NCBI GenBank assembly: GCA_026928255.1
Contig: JAIXKJ010000003.1
Location: 769,833 to 833,832, forward strand
From: Anaerolineales bacterium
Lineage (GTDB): Bacteria > Chloroflexota > Anaerolineae > Anaerolineales > Villigracilaceae
Length of the DNA: 64,000 bases
Reading direction: 5' to 3'
The translations under genes were made by a program, and so were the position numbers. Below, one piece after another: positions 53,230 to 64,000 of the stretch. The notes below the pieces were generated by a model, which made no database searches, was not told the DNA's origin, and saw nothing but the letters and a program-made list of their open reading frames with translations. Within the stretch, counting starts at the first letter, position 1. The number at the start of each line of letters is the position of its first letter.

Positions 53230-53589
53230 ATGAATCTACGAGACGTTATCGCCATCTCCAAAGGGGAAATTCTCACCCCGCAACTCAGCGCGGACGCGGA
53301 AATTTTCAGCGGCTGTTGCGCGGACTTAATGAGCGACGTGTTGGCGTACAGCCGCCCGCAAGCGGTTTTGCTGACCGGGCTCATTAACCCGCAAGTCGTC
53401 CGCACCGCGCAAGTGGCGGACGTTCGCGCCATCGTCTTCGCTCACGACAAACAGCCGCCGCCCGAAACTCTCGCCATCGCCGTTCAAGAAAATATTTTTC
53501 TAATCCGCAGCCCGATGAGCATGTACGAATTAAGCGGAAAACTTTACGCCGCCGGGCTGAGAAGTTGCGACGCCGATGAACGCGCCTAG
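53230..53589 (+). CDS. DRTGG-like domain protein 1
   Basis: A 119-residue protein, DRTGG-like fold: MNLRDVIAISKGEIL at the N-terminus, CCADLMSDVLAYS (about 29-41), a central AVLLTGLINPQVVRTAQVADVRAIVFA and PPETLAIAVQENI. DRTGG domains occur between CBS or ATPase domains and in hydrogenase clusters; their ligand is unknown. It overlaps the next gene by 14 bp. The locus pattern, not the sequence, ties it to the hydrogenase. Confidence 0.78.
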   Translation: MNLRDVIAISKGEILTPQLSADAEIFSGCCADLMSDVLAYSRPQAVLLTGLINPQVVRTAQVADVRAIVFAHDKQPPPETLAIAVQENIFLIRSPMSMYELSGKLYAAGLRSCDADERA

Positions 53590-54574
53590 ACCGCCCACCG
53601 AACAAGAAAAATTCGGGCGGCATCGTCCGCTGACCGACCGCGACGCGCACGAAATTAACCGCGTCGAAGAACTTTCCTATGATTTGAAAATTCACGAAAT
53701 CATCGCCGCCGAAGTCGTCGCCATCGCTCCCGACGCGCCGCTTTCCGACGCGCTCGATTTGCTTCGCCTTCATCGCATCTCCGGGCTGCCCGTCGTGGAC
53801 GAAGAAAACCTCGTCGGCATAATCAGCGTCGAAGACATCTTGCGCGCTTTACAAAACGGCGAAATTCATTTGCCCGTAAAAAATTACATGAGCGCCGACC
53901 CCGTTTCCGTCCGCGCTTCGGACAGCATCGTCGAAGCCATCAAAATCTTCACCGAAACAGGTTTGGGGCGTTTGCCCGTTTTGAACGAAAACAAACGGCT
54001 CATTGGCATCATCACCAAAGGCGACATCACGCGCGGAATTTTACGCGCCGTTCAACACGATTATCAAGAAGAAGAAGTGCGCCGCTATCGCGCCAGCCAT
54101 CTCTTTGAAGACATCGTCTCCGACCGCACGACGTTGGTTTTGCGCTACGCCATTCAAGCGGGAGATTTCACGCACGGCGGAAACGCTTCCGCAAACATCA
54201 AACGCGCCCTGCTAAGACTCGGCGCCAATCCGCAGTTGGCGCGGCGTTGCGGAATCGCCGCCTACGAAGCGGAAATGAATCTCATCATCCACACCGCCAA
54301 AGGCGGCGTCCTCAAACTGGAAGTCGAGTCAAATGAAATTGTCATTTCCGCCGCCGACGACGGGCCGGGCATTGAAGACATTCAAAAGGTGTTGCAGCCC
54401 GGCTACTCCACCGCCAGCGACCAAATTCGCGCAATGGGATTCGGCGCGGGCATGGGGTTGGTCAACATTCAACGGACGGTAGACGCAATGGAATTAAAGT
54501 CCGCGCCGGGCAAAGGCTCAAAATTGATCATGCGTATCGCCATGTCCGCCGACGATAAAAAAGGAGCGCTATGA
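53576..54574 (+). CDS. CBS-pair protein with C-terminal HATPase domain
   Basis: The 332-residue protein has two CBS domains (about 42-100 with IIAAEVVAIAPDAPLSDAL, and 105-165 with YMSADPVSVRASDSI) followed by a HATPase_c fold (about 190-330). The ATP site is visible in AAYEAEMNLIIHTAKGG (N box), ADDGPGI and GMGLVNIQRTVDAM. It looks like an anti-sigma or serine kinase controlled by adenine nucleotides bound to the CBS pair. It overlaps DRTGG1 by 14 bp and DRTGG2 by 4 bp, so the three are one translational unit. Confidence 0.88.
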   Translation: MNAPRPPTEQEKFGRHRPLTDRDAHEINRVEELSYDLKIHEIIAAEVVAIAPDAPLSDALDLLRLHRISGLPVVDEENLVGIISVEDILRALQNGEIHLPVKNYMSADPVSVRASDSIVEAIKIFTETGLGRLPVLNENKRLIGIITKGDITRGILRAVQHDYQEEEVRRYRASHLFEDIVSDRTTLVLRYAIQAGDFTHGGNASANIKRALLRLGANPQLARRCGIAAYEAEMNLIIHTAKGGVLKLEVESNEIVISAADDGPGIEDIQKVLQPGYSTASDQIRAMGFGAGMGLVNIQRTVDAMELKSAPGKGSKLIMRIAMSADDKKGAL

Positions 54575-54909
54575 ATCTTCAACACGTTATAGACGCGCTG
54601 CAACTTTCCGTCCTCACCGAAGCGCGAGATTTTTCCGCTATTTCGCCAAGCGGCGGCTACGCTTCCGATTTGCTTTCCTGCGTTATGGCGGGCACAAAAA
54701 AAGGCGCGTTGTGGATCACTCTGCAAGCGCACATGAACATCGTCGCCGTCGCCGCGTTGACCGAAGTCGCCGCTATCGTCATCACGGAAAACGCGCAACC
54801 CGAAAGCGCCGTCATCGCCAAAGCGGACGAACAAAACGTCATTTTGCTTTCCACGCCCAAAACCAGTTACGAAATTTGCGGCGCGTTATGGGAGATAGGA
54901 TTCCGCTGA
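54571..54909 (+). CDS. DRTGG-like domain protein 2
   Basis: A 112-residue protein with the same pattern as DRTGG1: SGGYASDLLSCVMA (about 28-40), LWITLQAHMNIVAVAAL and VIAKADEQNVILLSTPKTSYEI. It is probably a second DRTGG copy. It is bracketed by 4-bp and 1-base spacing with its neighbours and presumably acts with the CBS-ATPase. Ligand unknown. Confidence 0.78.
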   Translation: MNLQHVIDALQLSVLTEARDFSAISPSGGYASDLLSCVMAGTKKGALWITLQAHMNIVAVAALTEVAAIVITENAQPESAVIAKADEQNVILLSTPKTSYEICGALWEIGFR

Positions 54910-54910
54910 C

Positions 54911-55672
54911 ATGCGAACTTTCCGCGCCGACCTGCACGTTCACACCGTCCTCTCGCCCTGCGCCGAAGTTGAAATGATTCCGCCGTTAATTGTTCAAGAA
55001 GCGCTCGACCGCCGCATTGACATCATCGCCGTTTCGGATCACAACGCCAGCGCCAACGTTTGGGCGGTTCAAAAAGCGGCGCAAGGAAGCGGGCTGACGG
55101 TTTTGCCCGGCATGGAAGTTCAATCGCGCGAAGAAGTTCATTTGCTTTGCCTCTTCGCCTCTCTATCTGACCTCGAACTTTGGCAGCGCCAAATTGACTC
55201 TTCTCTCCCCGACGAATTAAATTCCGCCGAACATTTTGGCGAGCAATATCTGGTGGACGAACGCGGCGAATACGTCCGCAGCGAGCCGCGTCTGCTGTTG
55301 ACTTGCGTCGAGTTTTCGATTGAAGAAATTTTAGAACGAGTCGCCGCGCTGGGCGGGTTAGTCATCCCCGCGCATGTGGATCGCGCCACCTTCGGCTTGC
55401 TCCCCACGTTGGGCTTCCTCGCCGATTGGTGGAACTTCCCCGCGCTGGAAATTTCGCGCCACATCACGCCACAAATTTTGCGCGAAAAGTTTCCCTCCGC
55501 GCGCGGACATCCGCTCGTCCAAAACGGCGACGTTCACCGCCTCGACGAATTCTTGGGCGCGACGCTCTTTCGCATGGAAGCGCCGACTCTGGCGGAAATT
55601 CGTCAAGCGCTGAAAGGAATCGGGCGCAGACAAATTGAATTGAAAATAAGCGATAACCGACAGCCCAAATGA
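54911..55672 (+). CDS. PHP-domain phosphoesterase
   Basis: The 253-residue protein has the PHP metal motifs: D7-L-H9-V-H11-T at the start, VSDHNAS (about 41-47), GMEVQSREEVHLLCLF (about 64-79), PAHVDRA and GDVHRLDE near the C-terminus. PHP proteins hydrolyse phosphoesters, including nucleotides; this stand-alone form with hydrogenase genes has no known substrate to me. It starts 1 base after DRTGG2 and ends before the hydrogenase promoter. Confidence 0.88.
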   Translation: MRTFRADLHVHTVLSPCAEVEMIPPLIVQEALDRRIDIIAVSDHNASANVWAVQKAAQGSGLTVLPGMEVQSREEVHLLCLFASLSDLELWQRQIDSSLPDELNSAEHFGEQYLVDERGEYVRSEPRLLLTCVEFSIEEILERVAALGGLVIPAHVDRATFGLLPTLGFLADWWNFPALEISRHITPQILREKFPSARGHPLVQNGDVHRLDEFLGATLFRMEAPTLAEIRQALKGIGRRQIELKISDNRQPK

Positions 55673-55684
55673 TGACATCCATCA

Positions 55685-55713
55685 TTGACCGGTTGAAGGC
55701 AATTTTGTAAACT
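55685..55713 (+). promoter_or_regulatory. Sigma-70-type promoter of the hydrogenase genes
   Basis: TTGACC (55685-55690) and TAAACT (55708-55713) are 17 nt apart; a TG dinucleotide precedes the -10. Transcription would begin near 55720. The leader to the ATG at 55751 contains the palindrome listed next and GGCAGG as a weak Shine-Dalgarno. Confidence 0.6.
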
Positions 55714-55715
55714 AT

Positions 55716-55733
55716 TTGTGAAAAATATCACAT
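55716..55733. promoter_or_regulatory. Rex- or CRP/FNR-like operator at the hydrogenase promoter
   Basis: TTGTGA-AAAATA-TCACAT has only one mismatch from the Rex consensus (TTGTGA-N6-TCACAA), and its TGTGA-N6-TCACA core also fits CRP sites. It covers the predicted transcription start, where a repressor would block initiation. Given an NAD-linked hydrogenase downstream, Rex (NADH/NAD sensor) is the more natural reading; no rex gene is in the window. Confidence 0.6.
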
Positions 55734-55750
55734 AAATTTGGCAGGCAACT

Positions 55751-56257
55751 ATGGCGAACCCGATTCGAGAAATCCCCGCAAACGACCCGCTCAACTCCGC
55801 AGAATTGAAGTCGCTGCTCGACCGAATCATCGAAGAAAACAGAGAGCGCCCTGGCGCGGTGATGTTGGTCTTAAACGAAACGCAAGCCAAAATCGGGCAC
55901 GTTTCCCCCGCGATGCAAGCCTACATTGCTCGCAAGTTGCAAGTTCCGCTTGGACAAGTTCACGGCGTGGTTACGTTTTATTCGTTTTTCAAAACCAAAC
56001 CGCGCGGAAAGCACACGGTCAAATTTTGTTTAGGCACGGCTTGCTATGTGGCGGGGACTCCGCAATTGGTGGAGAAAGCCAAACAAATGCTGGGAATCGA
56101 ACTCGGCGACACCACACTCGACGGACAAATTACGCTGGAAGAATGTCGTTGCGTCGGCGCGTGCAGTCAGGCGCCGGTCGTCGTCGTGGACGACGAAGCG
56201 CACGGCAAACTGCGCCCGAATAAATTTCCGCAAGTGTTGAAGAAGATTCAAGGATAA
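55751..56257 (+). CDS. hydC: NuoE-like subunit of the [NiFe] hydrogenase (HydC)
   Basis: The 168-residue protein is a thioredoxin-like 2Fe-2S subunit with ligands C93, C98, C134 and C138, length typical of NuoE/HydC. It passes electrons between the flavin subunit and the other Fe-S centres. It begins the diaphorase block, 79 bases after the PHP gene and right after the promoter and operator. The start ATG has GGCAGG upstream. Confidence 0.93.
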   Translation: MANPIREIPANDPLNSAELKSLLDRIIEENRERPGAVMLVLNETQAKIGHVSPAMQAYIARKLQVPLGQVHGVVTFYSFFKTKPRGKHTVKFCLGTACYVAGTPQLVEKAKQMLGIELGDTTLDGQITLEECRCVGACSQAPVVVVDDEAHGKLRPNKFPQVLKKIQG

Positions 56258-56261
56258 GGTC

Positions 56262-56831
56262 ATGCGCGAGATTGCCCTACACTTGCTGGACATCGCCGAG
56301 AACAGCGTCGCCGCCGGCGGACGAACGATCCGCGTGGAGGTTTGCGAGGATTTGCCAAAAGACGAGTTGCAAATTTGCGTAACGGACGACGGCAAAGGCA
56401 TGGACAAACAGACCGCGCAAAACGCGCTCGACCCGTTTCACACGGCGCGAACGACGCGCAAGGTCGGGTTGGGACTTCCGCTTTTGAAAGAGGCGGCAGA
56501 AAGCGCGGGCGGAGGATTAAGCCTCGAAACAGAATTAGGCAAAGGCGCAAAAGTCGAGGCGCGTTTCCAACACAGCCATATTGACCGCGCTCCGCTCGGC
56601 GATCTCGGCGCGACGTTCCTCGCGCTTCTCGTCTCGCACCCGTCAGTTCATTGGATTTTCGTTTATCAAGTTGCGGCGGCGGACGGCGCGATTCGCCGTT
56701 TTGAATTGGACGACGAAGAAATCAAAGCGACGCTGGAAGGCGTCTCGTTGACCGAGCCGCAGGTGTTGAAGATTTTGCGCGACATCATCGAAGCGGGCGT
56801 CAAAGCGCCCGCGCCGCAAGTTATTTGCTGA
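56262..56831 (+). CDS. HATPase-domain protein between hydrogenase genes
   Basis: A 189-residue protein with a GHKL ATP-binding fold: N box LLDIAENSVAAGG (about 8-20), G1 TDDGKGM, and GLGLPLLKEAAESAGG. There is no HisKA, so it is not a classical sensor kinase. Residues 110-189 form a second, unrecognised domain. It lies 4 bases after hydC and 12 before the ferredoxin; similar ATPases occur in HydABC gene clusters of other anaerobes. Role unknown, possibly regulatory. Confidence 0.87.
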   Translation: MREIALHLLDIAENSVAAGGRTIRVEVCEDLPKDELQICVTDDGKGMDKQTAQNALDPFHTARTTRKVGLGLPLLKEAAESAGGGLSLETELGKGAKVEARFQHSHIDRAPLGDLGATFLALLVSHPSVHWIFVYQVAAADGAIRRFELDDEEIKATLEGVSLTEPQVLKILRDIIEAGVKAPAPQVIC

Positions 56832-56843
56832 AAGGAAGCCGCC

Positions 56844-57212
56844 ATGCCCGCCGTCAAATCGCTCGAAGAATTGAAGCGCGTCCGCGAAGAAGCGCTGGCG
56901 AAGAAACAACTGAAAACCGCGTCCGGTCAAATTCAAATTATTGTGGCGATGGGAACTTGCGGCATCGCCGCCGGCGCGCGCGACGCGATGAAGAGCATTT
57001 TGAATTTCATCGAAACCGAAAACATGAGCGGAATCAACGTAACCCAAACGGGCTGCATGGGCATGTGCGACCAAGAACCGATTGTGCAAGTCGCTTGCGG
57101 CGACCAGCCAAAAGTCGTTTACGGAAAAGTCAGCGCCGAAGTCGCCGCGCAAATTATGAAAGCGCACGTGCAAAACGGAACGCCGCTTAAGGAACACATT
57201 CTACCCGCGTAG
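56844..57212 (+). CDS. Thioredoxin-like [2Fe-2S] ferredoxin domain protein
   Basis: A 122-residue protein resembling the 2Fe-2S domain at the N-terminus of HydB. Ligand candidates are C39 (MGTCGIAAGA), C71 and C75 (TGCMGMC); a fourth may be C85. The first 25 residues are helical and charged. It lies 15 bases before hydB and may exchange electrons with it. Confidence 0.88.
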   Translation: MPAVKSLEELKRVREEALAKKQLKTASGQIQIIVAMGTCGIAAGARDAMKSILNFIETENMSGINVTQTGCMGMCDQEPIVQVACGDQPKVVYGKVSAEVAAQIMKAHVQNGTPLKEHILPA

Positions 57213-57227: not shown

Positions 57228-59012
57228 ATGCCATTCTATCGTTCTCACATCCTCGTTTGCGTAGATCCGCAATGCCTCGCCAAAGGCGCGCACGAATTAA
57301 CGGACGCTTTGCAAGACGAACTCGTGGCGCAAGGGCTCATTGACGAAATCCAAATCCTCGAAACGTCGCGCATTGGCGGCTGCGCCCGCGGACCTGAAAT
57401 TATGGTTTATCCCGAAGGGACGCATTACGTCGGGCTGACGGCGGACGACGCGCCGTATCTCGTCGAGGAACATTTCCTTAAGGGGCGCGTCGTCGAGAAA
57501 TTTGTCGAAAAAGAAAAACCCGTCGCGGACGAAGAGTTGGGTCCGCCGCGCCCGAAAGAGACGCGCATCATCTTGCGAAATTGCGGCGCGATTGACCCGA
57601 TGAATATCGAAGATTATTTGGCGGCGGACGGTTATCAAGCGCTGGGAAAAGTCATCAGCGAGATGACCGCCGAACAAGTCATTGACGAAGTTACCCGCTC
57701 CGGTCTGCGCGGGCGCGGCGGCGCGGGCTTCCCCGCCGGGCGCAAGTGGGCGCTGTCTCGTCAAGCGCCAGGCGACCTGAAGTACATGGTCTGCAACGCG
57801 GACGAAGGCGACCCTGGCGCGTTTATGAATCGCCGCGTTTTGGAAGGCGACCCGCATTCGGTGATTGAAGGCATGATCATCGGCGCGTATGCCATCGGCG
57901 CGAGTTACGGGTACATTTACTGCCGCGCCGAATATCCGCTGGCGGTGCAGACGCTCAACCTCGCCATCATCCAAGCGCGAGAGTTCGGCTTTTTAGGCAA
58001 AGATATTCTCGGCGCGGGCTTCAATTTTGACCTCGAAGTGCGCGTCGGCGCGGGCGCTTTCGTTTGCGGAGAAGAGACCGCCCTCATGGCTTCGATCATG
58101 GGTCGGCGCGGAGAGCCGCGCCCGCGTCCGCCGTTTCCTTCCGTCAAAGGCGTTTGGGGCAAACCGTCTAACAACAACAACGTCGAAACTTACGCCAACG
58201 TGCCGCAGATTATCCTCAACGGCGCGGACTGGTACGCCAGCATGGGGACGCCGCGCTCGAAAGGGACGAAAACTTTCGCCGTCGGCGGCAACGTCGCCAA
58301 GCCCGGTTTGATTGAAGTGCCGATGGGCATTACCTTGCGCGAAATTATTTTCGAGGTGGCGGGCGGAATCAAAGACGGGCGCAAGTTCAAAGCCGTGCAA
58401 ACTGGCGGCCCCATGGGCGGGTGTCTCGCCGAAGCGCATCTCGATTTGCCGCTCGATTATGAAGCGTTGACGCAAGCGGGTTCGATGATGGGTTCGGGCG
58501 GGTTGGTCGTCATGGACGAAACTTCTTGCATGGTGGACATCGCCCGCTTTTTTATGGATTTCACCCAAGCCGAATCTTGCGGAAAATGCGCGCCTTGTCG
58601 CGTCGGCACGCGCCGCATTTTGGAACTGCTGGAAAAAATCTGCGATGGAAAAGGTCAGCGCGGCGATTTGGAGCGCCTCGAAGATTTATGCCATGAAGTC
58701 GCCAAGAACAGCCTGTGCGGGCTGGGGCAAGGCGCGCCCAACCCCGTCTTAAGCACGCTTAAACTTTTCCGCGACGAATACGAAGCGCACGTTTATGAAA
58801 AGCGCTGTCCGGCGAAAGTTTGTCGTTCGCTCATTCGCTACGAGATTGAAGCGCCCGCCTGCACGGGCTGCATGGTCTGCGCGAGAAACTGCCCCGTCGA
58901 AGCGATTAGCGGCGAGCGCCGACAGGCGCATCACATTGACATCGAAAAGTGCATCCGCTGCGGAATTTGCATGCAAGTCTGCAACTTCAACGCGGTTTCG
59001 GTTTTGACCTAA
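57228..59012 (+). CDS. hydB: NuoF-like flavin subunit of the [NiFe] hydrogenase (HydB)
   Basis: The 594-residue protein follows HydB order: N-terminal thioredoxin-like Fe-S domain (1-100), FMN and NAD(H) domain (about 125-430, GRGGAGFPAGRKW), a 4Fe-4S site (SCGKCAPC at 450-457 with a later Cys), and a C-terminal two-cluster ferredoxin (about 543-590, CTGCMVCARNCP and CIRCGICMQVC). The N-terminal domain has C11, C16 and C52, but the usual fourth position (48) is Arg, so its cluster may be absent or altered. It oxidises or reduces NAD(H). hydA starts 15 bases downstream. Confidence 0.95.
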   Translation: MPFYRSHILVCVDPQCLAKGAHELTDALQDELVAQGLIDEIQILETSRIGGCARGPEIMVYPEGTHYVGLTADDAPYLVEEHFLKGRVVEKFVEKEKPVADEELGPPRPKETRIILRNCGAIDPMNIEDYLAADGYQALGKVISEMTAEQVIDEVTRSGLRGRGGAGFPAGRKWALSRQAPGDLKYMVCNADEGDPGAFMNRRVLEGDPHSVIEGMIIGAYAIGASYGYIYCRAEYPLAVQTLNLAIIQAREFGFLGKDILGAGFNFDLEVRVGAGAFVCGEETALMASIMGRRGEPRPRPPFPSVKGVWGKPSNNNNVETYANVPQIILNGADWYASMGTPRSKGTKTFAVGGNVAKPGLIEVPMGITLREIIFEVAGGIKDGRKFKAVQTGGPMGGCLAEAHLDLPLDYEALTQAGSMMGSGGLVVMDETSCMVDIARFFMDFTQAESCGKCAPCRVGTRRILELLEKICDGKGQRGDLERLEDLCHEVAKNSLCGLGQGAPNPVLSTLKLFRDEYEAHVYEKRCPAKVCRSLIRYEIEAPACTGCMVCARNCPVEAISGERRQAHHIDIEKCIRCGICMQVCNFNAVSVLT

Positions 59013-59027
59013 GGCGAAAGGACTGCT

Positions 59028-60992
59028 ATGGTGCAAATTACCATCAACCAACAACGCATAGACGTTCCCGAAGGCATGACGGTCATGCAAGCGGCGGATT
59101 CGGCGGGCATTCGCATTCCGCGCTTGTGCGCCCACAAAGCGCTGACGCCCTTCGGCGGTTGCCGTTTGTGCGTGGTCGAAGTCGAAGGCATGCGCGTTCC
59201 GATGGCGTCTTGCACGCTGCCCGTCAGCGAGGGCATGGTCGTCGAGACGGAAACAGAATCGTTGAAGAAGTCGCGCCAGTTCGTGTTGACGATGTTGTTC
59301 AGCGAGCGCAATCACTTCTGCCCGTTCTGCCAAGTCTCCGGCGGAGATTGCGAGTTGCAAAACGCCGCCTACCATGAAGAGATGACTCACTGGCCCATTC
59401 AGCCAGGCTGGAACGAATTTCCAGTGGACACGTCGCATCCCTACTTCGTGCTGGACAACAACCGCTGCATCCTCTGTCGGCGCTGCGTTAGCGCTTGCGC
59501 GGAGATGGCGGGCAACTTCACGCTGTCCGTTGCGGATCGCGGCGCGAAGAGCATGATCGTCGCCGACACCGACATTCCGCTCGGCGAAAGTTCCTGCATC
59601 AAATGCGGCTCTTGCGCGCAAGTCTGCCCGACGGGCGCGTTGATAGACCGCTTCAGCGCGTATCAATCTCACGACCGAAATTTGGAAGAAACGTCGTCCG
59701 TCTGCGTCGGCTGTTCGGTCGGGTGCGCCGTCAAGGTGATGACGCGCGATAACCGCCTCGTTCGCATCGAAGGCGATTGGGACGGCGCGGTCAACGGCGG
59801 CGTCCTCTGCGAACTCGGGCGCTACATTCCGCTGACCGAATCTCGTCCGCGCCTGACGACTCCGCTGGCGCGAAAAAACGGCAGCCTCGAACCCGTCTCT
59901 TGGGACGAAGCGCTAACCCTCGCGCAGAGCCGCCTGCAAAGCGGCAGCCTCGCGGCGCTCGCCTCCACGCGCTTGTCTGTCGAAGCGCTAACCGCGTTCA
60001 AAGAATTATTTGAAACCAAACTCGCCGCCCAACTGACGACCACGCTCGAAGAAGGGCGCGCCACGTCCGCGACGGCGAAATACGCCGAACGCGTCGGCAA
60101 CTTTGAAGGACGCCTCGACCTGCTCCAAACGGCGGACGTCGTTCTTTGCGTCGGCGCGGATATTAATCGTCATCATCAAGTGGCGGGATTTTTATTCAAG
60201 CGCAACTTGAACAACGGCGCAAATTTGATTGTCATAGACTCCGCCGAAACGACGCTGGCGGAACGCGCCCGCTTCGTCCTCGCCCCGAAAGCGGACGCTA
60301 CCCAAACGCTGATACTCGCCCTGCAAGCGGTCATCGCCAAAGAAGGCTTGGAGCGCAAATCGCTCGCCCTCGCGGACGTTGAATCGCGCGTCGAAAAAGC
60401 CGTCGCCGAATGCGGCGTCTCCGCCGAAGCGCTGACCCAATCCGCGCGTTTGTTGGCGAGCGCCATTACGCCCGTCATCCTCTACGGCGAAGCGGACGAA
60501 GCGACGGTCGAAGCGCTTCATCAACTCGCCGTTCAAATTGCGGCGACAGACGAAGAGCGCAACGGCATCCTCGCTTTGAAAGGCGGCGCGAACAGTCAAG
60601 CCGCTTCGCTCTTGGGGCTGGAACGACCTTTTCGACTCGCAGGCGGCGAAACGCTCTACCTCGCGTTGAGCGACGACGCGCTTCCGCAAGCGCTGGCAGA
60701 CGAAATTCGCAAAGCGGAATTTGTCGTCGCGCAAGCCAGTTACGAATCGGAAGTCGCCGAAATCGCCGACTTGGTTTTGCCCGTCGGCATTTGGGCGGAA
60801 GAAAGCGGGCATTTCGTCAACTTGGACGGGCGCGTTCAAAAGGCGCAAAAAGCGCTCGACGCGCCAAACGAAATTCCCGACAACTTGAATTTGCTGAATC
60901 AAATTGCCGAACGCATGAACATAACCTTAAACGCGGATTGGCGCGAAGCCGTCCGCCAGCGAAACGTCGGCGCGGAATTGAGGATTTTATGA
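59028..60992 (+). CDS. hydA: NuoG-like Fe-S subunit of the [NiFe] hydrogenase (HydA)
   Basis: The 654-residue protein has a plant-type 2Fe-2S domain (C34, C45, C48, C62), a His-Cys 4Fe-4S site (H96, C98, C101, C108), a 2x4Fe-4S domain (C147, C150, C153, C157 and C190, C193, C196, C200) and a molybdopterin-oxidoreductase type 4Fe-4S site (C226, C229, C233, C261). The rest (about 270-654) is a shortened, molybdopterin-domain-like region without a recognisable cofactor site. No [FeFe] H-cluster domain is present. It links flavin and hydrogenase modules. Stop overlaps hydS start by 4 bp. Confidence 0.93.
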   Translation: MVQITINQQRIDVPEGMTVMQAADSAGIRIPRLCAHKALTPFGGCRLCVVEVEGMRVPMASCTLPVSEGMVVETETESLKKSRQFVLTMLFSERNHFCPFCQVSGGDCELQNAAYHEEMTHWPIQPGWNEFPVDTSHPYFVLDNNRCILCRRCVSACAEMAGNFTLSVADRGAKSMIVADTDIPLGESSCIKCGSCAQVCPTGALIDRFSAYQSHDRNLEETSSVCVGCSVGCAVKVMTRDNRLVRIEGDWDGAVNGGVLCELGRYIPLTESRPRLTTPLARKNGSLEPVSWDEALTLAQSRLQSGSLAALASTRLSVEALTAFKELFETKLAAQLTTTLEEGRATSATAKYAERVGNFEGRLDLLQTADVVLCVGADINRHHQVAGFLFKRNLNNGANLIVIDSAETTLAERARFVLAPKADATQTLILALQAVIAKEGLERKSLALADVESRVEKAVAECGVSAEALTQSARLLASAITPVILYGEADEATVEALHQLAVQIAATDEERNGILALKGGANSQAASLLGLERPFRLAGGETLYLALSDDALPQALADEIRKAEFVVAQASYESEVAEIADLVLPVGIWAEESGHFVNLDGRVQKAQKALDAPNEIPDNLNLLNQIAERMNITLNADWREAVRQRNVGAELRIL

Positions 60993-61531
60993 GCAAACCC
61001 AAAATCGCTTCAGATTGGATGTGCGGGTGCGCGGGCTGTCATATGTCGCTGTTGGACATGGACGAGCGCATTTTGAAAATCGTCGAACTGGCGGATTTGC
61101 GCGCAACGCCCATCACCGACTTGAAAGAACCCGACGAAAGCGGCGTGGACGTGGGCGTGCTGGAAGGCGGAATTAACAACAGCGCCAACGAAGAAGTGGC
61201 AAAGAAAATGCGCGCGCGTTCCAAAATTTTGGTGGCGCTCGGCGATTGCGCCGTCTTTGGCGGCGTGCCTGCGCTGCGAAATTTCTGCGGCGTGCAAGCC
61301 GCCCTGCGCCGCGCTTACGTCGAAGCGGAAAGCAACGAAGAGGGCAGTCAAATTCCCGACGACCCCGAACTGGCGACCATGACCGAAACCCGCGCCGTTC
61401 ACGAAGTCGTGGACGTGGACTACAACGTGCCCGGCTGCCCGCCCGACCCCGACACGATTTTTTACGTCCTCTCGGAGTTGGCGCAAGGGCGCAAGCCAAA
61501 GTTGAAAGACGAATTGCTGCATTGGGATTAA
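60989..61531 (+). CDS. hydS: [NiFe] hydrogenase small subunit (HydS/HoxY-like)
   Basis: A 180-residue protein, short as in group 3 hydrogenases, with the ligands of one proximal 4Fe-4S cluster: C14 and C17 (CAGCHMSLLDMDE), C87 (LGDCAVFGG) and C150 (VPGCPPDP). There is no signal peptide, so it is cytoplasmic. The ATG at 60989 overlaps hydA in ATGA. It relays electrons between the NiFe site and the Fe-S chain of HydA. The large subunit gene starts 21 bases later. Confidence 0.95.
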   Translation: MSKPKIASDWMCGCAGCHMSLLDMDERILKIVELADLRATPITDLKEPDESGVDVGVLEGGINNSANEEVAKKMRARSKILVALGDCAVFGGVPALRNFCGVQAALRRAYVEAESNEEGSQIPDDPELATMTETRAVHEVVDVDYNVPGCPPDPDTIFYVLSELAQGRKPKLKDELLHWD

Positions 61532-61552: not shown

Positions 61553-62983
61553 ATGAGCGTTCAAAAAATCACTATCGAACCCGTAACCCGCATCGAAGGA
61601 CACGCTAAAGTTACCATTCGTTTGAAGGACGATTACACCGTCGAGCGGGCGTACATGCACGTCAACGAATTTCGCGGATTTGAAAAATTTTGCGAAGGGC
61701 GCTTATATTTTGAAATGCCGCAAATCACGCCGCGCATTTGCGGAATTTGCCCGGTCAGCCATCACCTCGCTTCGGCAAAAGCCGCCGACGCGCTGACTGG
61801 TCAAACGCCGCCGCGCCCGGCAAATCTTCTGCGCGAGTTAATGCACATGGGGCAAGTCGTCCAAAGTCACGGAATGCATTTCTTTGAATTGGCGGGACCC
61901 GACCTCTTGCTCGGTTTCGACGCTTCGCCAGAAATTCGCAGCGTGGTCGGCTTAATCGGCGCGAACCCCGAACTGACGGTCAAAGCCGTGCAGTTGCGGA
62001 AGTTTGGTCAAGAGATCGTCAAAACGCTCGGCGGGCGAAAAATTCATCCAATCTTCGCCGTGCCAGGCGGAGTCAACAAAACGCTGACCGTCGCCGAACG
62101 CGACTCCATCCTCAAAGGCGTGGACGCCGCCATCGAGACGACTCAAATCGGCTTGCAAATTATGAAAGAGTGGGCGGAGAAAAACGCGGAAGACATCGCC
62201 AAATTTGCCGTCTTCCCCAGCGGCTATTTTGGCTTGACCACGCCCGACAACGCGCTCGAACTGTACGACGGCGACATCCGCCTCATCGGAGCGGACGGCG
62301 CGGCGTTGGAACGCTTCCCCGTCGCCGACTACCTCGATCACATCGCCGAACACGTCGAAAACTGGTCTTACCTCAAATTCCCATATTACAAAAAATTGGG
62401 CTACCCAAACGGCGTGTACCGCGTCGGTCCGTTGGGGCGCTTAAACCTCGCGGAAAAAATTCACACGCCGCTGGCAAACGCCGAACTGCAAATCTTCAAA
62501 AGTCTTAACGGCGGCAAGCCCGTCGAAAACACGCTTTATTATCATTACGCCCGCTTGATTGAAATTCTCTTCACGGCGGAGCGCGTCCGCGTTTTGTGCG
62601 AAGACGAAGACATTACCAGCCTTGAAATTTTGAACACGCGCAAAAATTACGTCGGGCATGGCGTCGGCGTTCTCGAAGCGCCGCGCGGGACTCTCATCCA
62701 CGATTACACGGCGGACGAAGACGGCAAACTCTTGCGCGTCAACCTCATCGTTTCGACTGGACACAACAACTGGGCAATGACTACCGCCGTGGACAGCGTC
62801 GCCAAAACGTACATTCAAGGACCCGACGTTCCCGAAGGCGCGCTCAACCGCGTCGAAGCCGCCATCCGCGCTTACGACCCTTGCCTCTCTTGCTCGACTC
62901 ACGCCGTCGGGCAAATGCCCATTCAAGTGGATTTCGTCGCCGCCGACGGTTCGCTGGTCAAAACGCTTACGCGAGAGCGATGA
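61553..62983 (+). CDS. hydL: [NiFe] hydrogenase large subunit (HydL/HoxH-like)
   Basis: The 476-residue catalytic subunit binds the NiFe(CN)2CO site through C63 and C66 ([11 protein letters not shown]) and C444 and C447 (DPCLSCSTH). H450 ends the mature chain; the 26 residues after it are the propeptide that a maturation protease would remove. It resembles group 3 bidirectional enzymes. Four bases overlap the protease gene. The hyp maturation genes are not in this window. Confidence 0.96.
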
Positions 62984-63474
62984 AAAAATTTCTCTTTCTC
63001 GGCTACGGAAATCCAGACCGCGAAGACGACGGAGTCGCTTGGCACATCTTGCGCGAGTTGACGGTCAAACTGGGGCTGCCCGCGCCGACTTCCTACGACG
63101 ACGATTTTCCCTCGACCCCTAACGCGGACTTCGCCTTTCACCTGCAACTGACTCCCGAAATGGCGGAAGACGTCGCCGAGTACGAACACGTCTGCTTCGC
63201 GGACGCGCACACCGGAAACATTGCGGAGGAAGTTCGCTTAATTGAAATTGACAGCGATTTTCAAAAATCGCCGTTTACGCATCACTTAACCCCGCAGTCG
63301 CTGCTTTCTATCTGCGAGACGCTTTATCGGCGCAAACCAGATTCCGCGCTGTTGTCGGTTCGCGGCTATCAATTTCTCTTCTCGCGCGAACTCTCGCCGC
63401 AGACTGCCGCCCTCGCGCCGCAAGCCGTCGAATCCGCTTGGGCGTGGATGAAGGCGCAAGAATCGCAGGCTTAA
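62980..63474 (+). CDS. Hydrogenase maturation protease (HycI/HoxW-like)
   Basis: A 164-residue endopeptidase that trims the C-terminal tail of the large subunit after nickel insertion. It begins LGYGNPDREDDGV (7-19), with D16 or D17 as Ni ligand, and has FADAHTG further on (Asp and His). It overlaps hydL by 4 bp. Length and place fit the role; it is more divergent in the C-terminal half. Confidence 0.92.
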   Translation: MKKFLFLGYGNPDREDDGVAWHILRELTVKLGLPAPTSYDDDFPSTPNADFAFHLQLTPEMAEDVAEYEHVCFADAHTGNIAEEVRLIEIDSDFQKSPFTHHLTPQSLLSICETLYRRKPDSALLSVRGYQFLFSRELSPQTAALAPQAVESAWAWMKAQESQA

Positions 63475-63589
63475 GCCGAAAGTCGAAAAGCGGCGCGTTA
63501 ATCCATGACAAACGTCAGGCGAGATAAGGAAGTTTTCCGCGTGATGTTTTATTTTTTCCATGATAAAAAAGACGAATAGAAGGAGACGA

Positions 63590-64000
63590 ATGATGACCAG
63601 CGTGCGTAAACTTTTGGAAGCCAAAGAATTTGCAAAAAATTATTCTATCGAAGCCTCGCAAAGCGTGTTGGACGCGCTCAAAGTGATGGCGGACGCGCAC
63701 ATTGGCGCGGTGTTGGTTACGGAAAACGAAAAGATCGTCGGCATTTTTACCGAACGCGATTACCTATACAAAGGCGAAGCGTTGGGGCGCGCCGCAAAAG
63801 ACACGAAGGTCGCGGACGTGATGACTCCGAAGATGATTAACGTAACGATGGACACGACCGTCGAACAGTGCATGGGCTTGATGAAGCAGTACAAAATTCG
63901 CCATTTGCCCGTCGTCGAAGGCGAGCGTTTAATCGGCTTGGTCTCCATGCGCGACGTGATGGTGGCGGCGATTGAAAATAAAGAAAGCGAAATTCGCGGA
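63590..64000 (+). CDS. Two-CBS domain protein, truncated at the window edge
   Basis: The open frame from the ATG at 63590 (AAGGAG 4 bases upstream) runs to the end of the window without a stop. It encodes a CBS pair: residues 1-60 (VRKLLEAKEFAKNYSIEASQ) and 75-130 (ADVMTPKMINVTMDTT). The 137 residues seen are near full length for a small CBS protein. It follows the protease gene by 115 bases and could report energy charge to the hydrogenase. Confidence 0.85.
   Translation, partial: MMTSVRKLLEAKEFAKNYSIEASQSVLDALKVMADAHIGAVLVTENEKIVGIFTERDYLYKGEALGRAAKDTKVADVMTPKMINVTMDTTVEQCMGLMKQYKIRHLPVVEGERLIGLVSMRDVMVAAIENKESEIRG

Follow-up and report, generated by a model that had tools for sequence, protein, structure and literature searches.

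What does a packed block of genes for signalling-type proteins do immediately upstream of a bifurcating hydrogenase operon? The question is raised by a 64,000-nucleotide stretch of the genome of an Anaerolineales bacterium (contig JAIXKJ010000003.1; hereafter the window), in which the genes for DRT1, CBS-HATPase, DRT2 and PHP precede that for HydC, and the genes for HATP2 and Fd122 lie inside the structural genes of the hydrogenase. Comparison of sequences indicates that these six genes belong together and that they follow HydB and HydC, the NADH/ferredoxin (HydBC) core of the enzyme. The six products are listed below.

53230-53589, + strand: DRT1, a stand-alone DRTGG-fold protein of 119 amino acids with invariant D32 and S35 (DLMS), recognized from its relatives and fold
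53576-54574, + strand: CBS-HATPase, a CBS pair plus an RsbT/SpoIIAB-like GHKL ATPase, 332 amino acids, recognized by Pfam, motifs and alignment
54571-54909, + strand: DRT2, a second stand-alone DRTGG protein, 112 amino acids, above the Pfam cut-off and with invariant D33, S36 and T50
54911-55672, + strand: PHP, a predicted metal-dependent phosphoesterase of the PHP family, 253 amino acids, above the Pfam cut-off and with metal ligands
56262-56831, + strand: HATP2, a GHKL ATPase with a small C-terminal alpha/beta domain, recognized by Pfam and a structural model
56844-57212, + strand: Fd122, a degenerate thioredoxin-like ferredoxin with three of the four cluster cysteines

The first four are same-strand open reading frames packed into 53230-55672: DRT1 and CBS-HATPase overlap by 14 bp, CBS-HATPase and DRT2 by 4 bp, and a single base separates DRT2 from PHP, so that the spacing described in an earlier note on this DNA is borne out by the coordinates. 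PHP is followed by an interval of 78 bp, containing a promoter-like site, and then by HydC, HATP2, Fd122, HydB, HydA, HydS, HydL and a protease. Of 80 Anaerolineae loci, 57 have the eight-gene order DRT1-CBS-HATPase-DRT2-PHP-HydC-HATP2-Fd122-HydB, and contig ends truncate most of the remaining ones; the recurrence shows that the arrangement is not due to chance.

Profile searches of 400 Chloroflexota genomes reveal how closely the set is linked to HydB. The CBS-HATPase profile matched 21 genomes (E<=4e-76), and the PHP profile gave 18 matches at E<=1e-78, the next lying at 1e-16. HydB, scored at a cut-off of at least 700 bits that was chosen after the scores had been seen, is present in 21/21 genomes with CBS-HATPase versus 15/379 without it (Fisher 1e-25, uncorrected for kinship, the genomes not being independent). 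Within the genus of the window (g1), HydB and the module are both present in five genomes and both absent from six (5/5 versus 0/6; p = 0.002). Four genomes carry the cassette with no hydC after it, and all four have HydB elsewhere (76-77% identity); G433 and G435 have each of the two loci in the interior of a contig, the second being HydC-HATP2-Fd122-HydB. The link therefore does not rest on adjacency alone. The co-occurrence with the hydrogenase core that the earlier note had suspected is strong and beyond chance, within the genus and among unlinked loci as well. At the 15 HydB loci lacking the module HATP2 and Fd122 are absent too, and in the loci sampled the six genes thus go together as a set; judged from these sequences, they are one accessory set.

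The catalyst beside the module is mostly [NiFe] HydS/HydL, at some loci a formate dehydrogenase alpha subunit, and at a single one (L109) an [FeFe] subunit of group A6 type. The formate dehydrogenases examined all exceed the TIGR01591 cut-off, that of L103 having an in-frame UGA read as selenocysteine and those of L026 and L082 being without it. In a HydB tree of 86 rows, made by a quick method, the module label changes four times and the catalyst label ten times; one of the four is an artefact of L035, which was scored as lacking the module through a cut contig, DRT2, PHP, HATP2 and Fd122 being present there. Formate dehydrogenase occurs within the module-bearing HydB clade at L023, L024, L040, L026/L082 and L061, and most cases in this tree belong to one Anaerolineae clade. 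Because the set stays with HydBC while the catalyst changes ([NiFe], formate dehydrogenase with Cys or Sec, [FeFe]), the module is, as far as gene content tells, tied to the HydBC core and not specific to hydrogenases. The term "hydrogenase-linked" used in the earlier note was too narrow, since the module also stands beside formate dehydrogenase with a HydBC core. The BfuABC family likewise combines a HydB core with various catalysts, including formate dehydrogenase; the accessible parts of PMC9304861 tie no signalling module to that core, whereas in the present sample only some HydB lineages carry the accessory set. Formate dehydrogenase alpha genes with an in-frame UGA (probable selenocysteine) are linked to HydBC at L103:15413-18199, L024, L040, L046, L108 and L113, all of Chloroflexota. 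The genome of L109 has a second [FeFe] cluster (L123), which lacks the module.

The most retained part of the module is CBS-HATPase together with at least one DRTGG protein. Pfam places two CBS repeats and one HATPase domain in CBS-HATPase, all above cut-off, and both repeats retain their S/T-x-x-D motifs. The motifs of a predicted ATP site are intact, viz. an N box EAEMN...H (EAxxNxxxH), a G1 box DDGPGI and a G2 box GFGAGMGL. The closest GHKL model to this domain is spIIAB, and the motifs EAxxNxxxH, DxGPGI and GxGxG are shared with the switch kinases RsbT and SpoIIAB. Unlike these kinases, the window protein is fused to a CBS pair and has no STAS partner in the cluster: the Pfam scan recognized no STAS domain among the cluster proteins, and a DRTGG protein occupies the upstream gene position. 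The order DRT1-kinase resembles rsbS-rsbT and spoIIAA-spoIIAB.

DRT1 of the window falls under the Pfam DRTGG cut-off (13.1 versus 25.2 bits). The domain is matched by 32 of 33 relatives (best 2.6e-10), DRT1 and DRT2 are paralogues (hhalign 99.6%), and the AlphaFold model of DRT1 (predicted local distance difference test, pLDDT, 95) matches the DRTGG structure 2IOJ with a template-modelling score of 0.77. On its relatives and predicted fold, DRT1 is a DRTGG domain protein. The serine of the DLxS turn is invariant in both paralogues across three phyla, and T49 of DRT1 is Thr in 80/82 proteins and Ser in the remainder. Residue 72 of the window protein (window 53443-53445) is His where 81/82 relatives have Arg (RGK motif). 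The CBS-DRTGG region of a clostridial pyrophosphatase binds nucleotides. Structures of this region (3L2B, 3L31) are among the top fold matches of the DRT1 model, and the regulatory region of family II inorganic pyrophosphatases likewise uses CBS and DRTGG together; in contrast, CBS and DRTGG reside here on separate proteins, and an ATPase takes the place of the pyrophosphatase.

All nine metal ligands expected of a PHP enzyme (H9, H11, D43, H44, E69, H77, H155, D207 and H209) are present in the window protein. They are invariant in an alignment of 13 rows and conserved to at least 97% in one of 85 rows, which predicts an intact metal site. In sequence the protein is nearest to nucleoside-bisphosphate phosphatase, RNase and EndoQ-type enzymes.

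The two remaining members lie within the structural genes, as the earlier note had stated, and its identification of one of them as a 2Fe-2S protein did not hold, one of the four cysteine ligands being absent. The ligand positions of Fd122 read M-C-C-C in 52/75 relatives and have no cysteine at any of the four in 23/75, and position 36 is Met in 75/75; with this pattern Fd122 is non-canonical as a [2Fe-2S] protein, and its assignment as a canonical [2Fe-2S] ferredoxin was rejected. The GHKL domain of HATP2 begins near residue 4 and is followed by the alpha/beta domain; neither Pfam nor the domain layout reveals a dimerisation domain of histidine kinases with its phosphoacceptor His. A two-component histidine kinase was accordingly rejected for HATP2. 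The best fold matches of its model are the N-terminal ATPase domains of MutL, over most of the length, and the catalytic domains of histidine kinases. By description and place HATP2 is the counterpart of HisK of Acetomicrobium mobile and HydE of Acetobacterium woodii (PMC8880783, PMC3315566), and Fd122 that of HydD. The domain and cysteine patterns caution against annotating genes of these types as histidine kinase and ferredoxin. The NiFe-HydABCSL operon of A. mobile (with hisK, hydD and hydP) has the same structural genes, and there the HisK- and HydD-type genes are part of the operon and their products lie outside the enzyme, according to the accessible parts of PMC8880783 and PMC9304861. 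Those parts do not describe the DRT1-CBS-HATPase-DRT2-PHP block, which is conserved and co-occurring here, and most Anaerolineae relatives differ further in adding a second HydC/HydB pair.

A kinase-like (histidine/serine) ATPase and a sensory [FeFe] hydrogenase, also called HydS, are known to be encoded near bifurcating hydrogenases (PMC3561251, PMC8163306). For comparison with other phyla we used two cassette records (L152, L153), Acetoanaerobium, Phocaeicola and a record labelled Klebsiella. L152 and L153 came from a protein search of plasmid records, and both look like chromosomal pieces. In L152 (Parabacteroides distasonis, Bacteroidota) the order is DRT1, an RsbT-like ATPase of 141 amino acids without CBS, an [FeFe]-type protein, DRTGG, PHP with a complete metal-ligand set, and HATP2; some 60 kb separates this cassette from Fd122, HydB, HydA(A6) and HydC. 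L153 (Subdoligranulum, Bacillota) has DRT1, RsbT without CBS, the same [FeFe]-type protein, DRT2 and PHP, divergent from HydC-HATP2-Fd122-HydB-HydA. The DRT1, RsbT-like ATPase, DRT2 and PHP families are thus common to the window, L152 and L153. Both [FeFe]-type proteins possess two 4Fe-4S repeats, Fe_hyd_lg_C and a C-terminal Cx2Cx4Cx16C, with no PAS domain, the layout described for M2e HydS (PMC8163306). The neighbourhood of sensory hydrogenases (HydS, M2e/M2f, group C) upstream of HydABC resembles the window in having DRT1, RsbT, DRT2, PHP and HATP2 around or near the HydS-type protein; it differs in that the window version is without HydS and has a CBS pair fused to the ATPase instead. No H-cluster protein (PF02906) was found in the genome of the window or, counting that genome, in 19 of the 21 Chloroflexota carriers, the other two having one. 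The missing sensor leads us to file the window set as a variant of the HydS-type cassette, and since 19/21 carriers are without an H-cluster protein and the ATPase of Chloroflexota bears a fused CBS pair, we read it as the Chloroflexota version in which the H2 sensor would have been replaced by that pair: the input would be H2 or redox state, read by HydS, in the [FeFe] systems and adenylates, read by CBS, here. This neighbourhood was already known in outline; we found no account in the open-access literature of the module, of its tie to HydBC across catalysts or of the CBS replacement, and these are apparently new. The chromosome-sized Acetoanaerobium record has HydCBA, with no PHP of the module type and no HATP2/Fd122 beside HydCBA. 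The record labelled as a Klebsiella pneumoniae plasmid (L163, NZ_CP061968.1; 27 kb) contains an anaerobe-type HydC-HydB (54% identity) and is possibly contamination; the "plasmid" records L152 and L164 resemble whole or partial chromosomes.

The reading that we prefer is that the set is a dedicated accessory signalling module of HydBC-type NADH-/ferredoxin-linked bifurcating oxidoreductases, working through a phosphorylation circuit; we put its probability at about 0.4. The CBS pair would read adenine nucleotides (energy charge) and gate the RsbT-like kinase, which would phosphorylate DRT1, DRT2 or both, the invariant serine of the DLxS turn being the simplest site, and PHP would take the phosphate off again. 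The state of the DRTGG protein would be relayed to HATP2 and the ferredoxin-like Fd122, and these two would bind HydBC and switch or limit its NADH/ferredoxin electron traffic. The sequences themselves show the linkage, ATP, metal and CBS sites that are intact, and the absence of the sensor, whereas the kinase activity, the phosphosite, the direction of control and the contact with HydBC are inferred; action on HydBC probably passes through the kinase/phosphoesterase pair. Of the "signalling or cofactor-protection pathway" envisaged in the earlier note, signalling gains support from the parts themselves and from the same genes surrounding a HydS-type [FeFe] protein in two other phyla, and nothing specific speaks for cofactor protection.

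Several observations weigh against this reading. L109 keeps the other module genes beside its [FeFe] HydABC, with PHP reduced to a fragment of some 50 residues (L109:11834-11980) in which the first metal ligand is altered; L107 (Chloroflexota) has a two-gene version, DRT1 plus CBS-HATPase with no PHP or DRT2, adjoining a group 3b-type [NiFe] sulfhydrogenase operon; and DRT1 is absent from L064 and L072. These losses imply that not every step is always needed. Characterised PHP relatives act mostly on nucleotides or nucleic acids, not on phosphoproteins, HATP2 is as similar to MutL-type ATPases as to kinases, and neither a sigma factor nor a STAS protein nor a response regulator was recognized in the cluster. 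The activities of all module parts are predictions, and outside Chloroflexota the replacement of the sensor is supported by two records only.

In a more tentative extension, which we consider doubtful on balance, the set would be an exchangeable-input module for flavin-based bifurcation: HydS would report H2 in the [FeFe] systems and the CBS pair energy charge in those with [NiFe] or formate dehydrogenase, both acting through an RsbT-like kinase, DRTGG and PHP to gate HydBC post-translationally. How M2e HydS passes on its signal has been raised as a question (PMC8163306); if the extension were true, the module would supply the signalling route so far missing for these PAS-less proteins. The module also bears on how an anaerobe prevents its bifurcating enzyme, which is reversible, from depleting NADH or reduced ferredoxin. 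Conservation of the set alongside the HydBC core in three phyla, where a different sensor is combined with otherwise the same members, points to the likely components and opens the problem to experiment, the questions being which protein receives a phosphate, what ligand the CBS pair has and whether the activity of HydBC alters.

The main rival is an assembly or repair role, which we regard as rather unlikely: HATP2 would be an ATP-driven chaperone (GHKL, MutL/Hsp90-like) and Fd122 a scaffold or insertion factor, with CBS-HATPase, DRTGG and PHP timing the loading or repair of flavin mononucleotide (FMN) or Fe-S clusters in HydBC. The want of a dimerisation domain in HATP2 and the match of its model to MutL agree with this, as does the set's following HydBC rather than the catalyst. 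HisK and HydD of A. mobile, which belong to the operon and not to the purified enzyme, are assumed in the accessible parts of PMC8880783 and PMC9304861 to serve maturation and/or regulation, and HydE of A. woodii is likewise not part of the active enzyme (PMC3315566). However, 15 HydBC loci do without the set, which is therefore not generally needed for assembly, and the CBS pair here and the HydS-type protein in relatives point to signalling.

Partner-switching control of transcription, in which CBS-RsbT and DRTGG would act on a distant sigma or other transcription factor and so set expression of the hydrogenase operon, is less probable still. The ATPase is of the RsbT/SpoIIAB kind, hydC is preceded by a promoter-like site of its own, and the usual proposal for sensory [FeFe] hydrogenases is an effect on expression (PMC6776011, PMC8163306). 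Against this, neither a sigma factor nor a gene for a DNA-binding protein belongs to the block conserved in the 80 loci, HATP2 and Fd122 are encoded among the structural genes, and the module follows the lineage of a subunit and not a pathway. It is quite improbable that the set performs nucleotide housekeeping, PHP destroying an inhibitory nucleotide (e.g. a 3′,5′-bisphosphate or damaged NAD(H)) from the FMN/NADH core that CBS and DRTGG would sense. The nearest relatives of PHP and its invariant ligands suit such a role, as does its following HydBC, but L109 and L107 have lost PHP or lack it while retaining the rest, many HydBC loci are without it, and two ATPases would be left unexplained. 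Joint inheritance in one operon with no functional link, to which the concentration of most cases in one Anaerolineae clade might point, was rejected on the unlinked cassette/HydB cases, the association also holding in three phyla with rearranged order, and gain or loss within a genus affecting the module as a whole.

The remaining features of the locus are as follows.

55685-55713, + strand: promoter-like sequence TTGACC-17-TAAACT between PHP and HydC, a consensus match only
55751-56257, + strand: HydC (NuoE-like), part of the bifurcating core and of the enzyme associated with the module, recognized by similarity search
57228-59012, + strand: HydB (NuoF-like; FMN/NADH; extra 4Fe-4S clusters), the subunit tracked by the module, from Pfam and HydB comparisons
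59028-60992, + strand: HydA (NuoG-like), without H-cluster, from Pfam
60989-61531, + strand: HydS, here the small subunit of the [NiFe] enzyme and not related to the sensory protein HydS of [FeFe] systems, from Pfam
61553-62983, + strand: HydL, the [NiFe] large subunit; closest NCBIfam model VhuA
62965-63474, + strand: hydrogenase maturation protease, recognized by similarity search

These genes have the NiFe-HydABCSL layout, in which a HydA lacking the H-cluster and a [NiFe] HydS/HydL are encoded in one operon with HydB and HydC. No repeats were found around operon starts, and viral contigs scanned with the CBS-HATPase and HATP2 alignments contained no relatives of either. The second HydC/HydB-like pair (about 165 + 550 amino acids), found between HydB and HydA in most Anaerolineae relatives, is absent from the window (57228-60992) and from L056, L065, L066 and L087. 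The HydB reading frame spans about 1030-1050 amino acids in L023, L063, L064, L072, L110, L111 and L140, which suggests a fusion or a large terminal extension. After the protease, at 63560-64000, the window encodes a further CBS-pair protein, and a CBS protein near the end of the hydrogenase operon occurs also in L017, L022 and L141.

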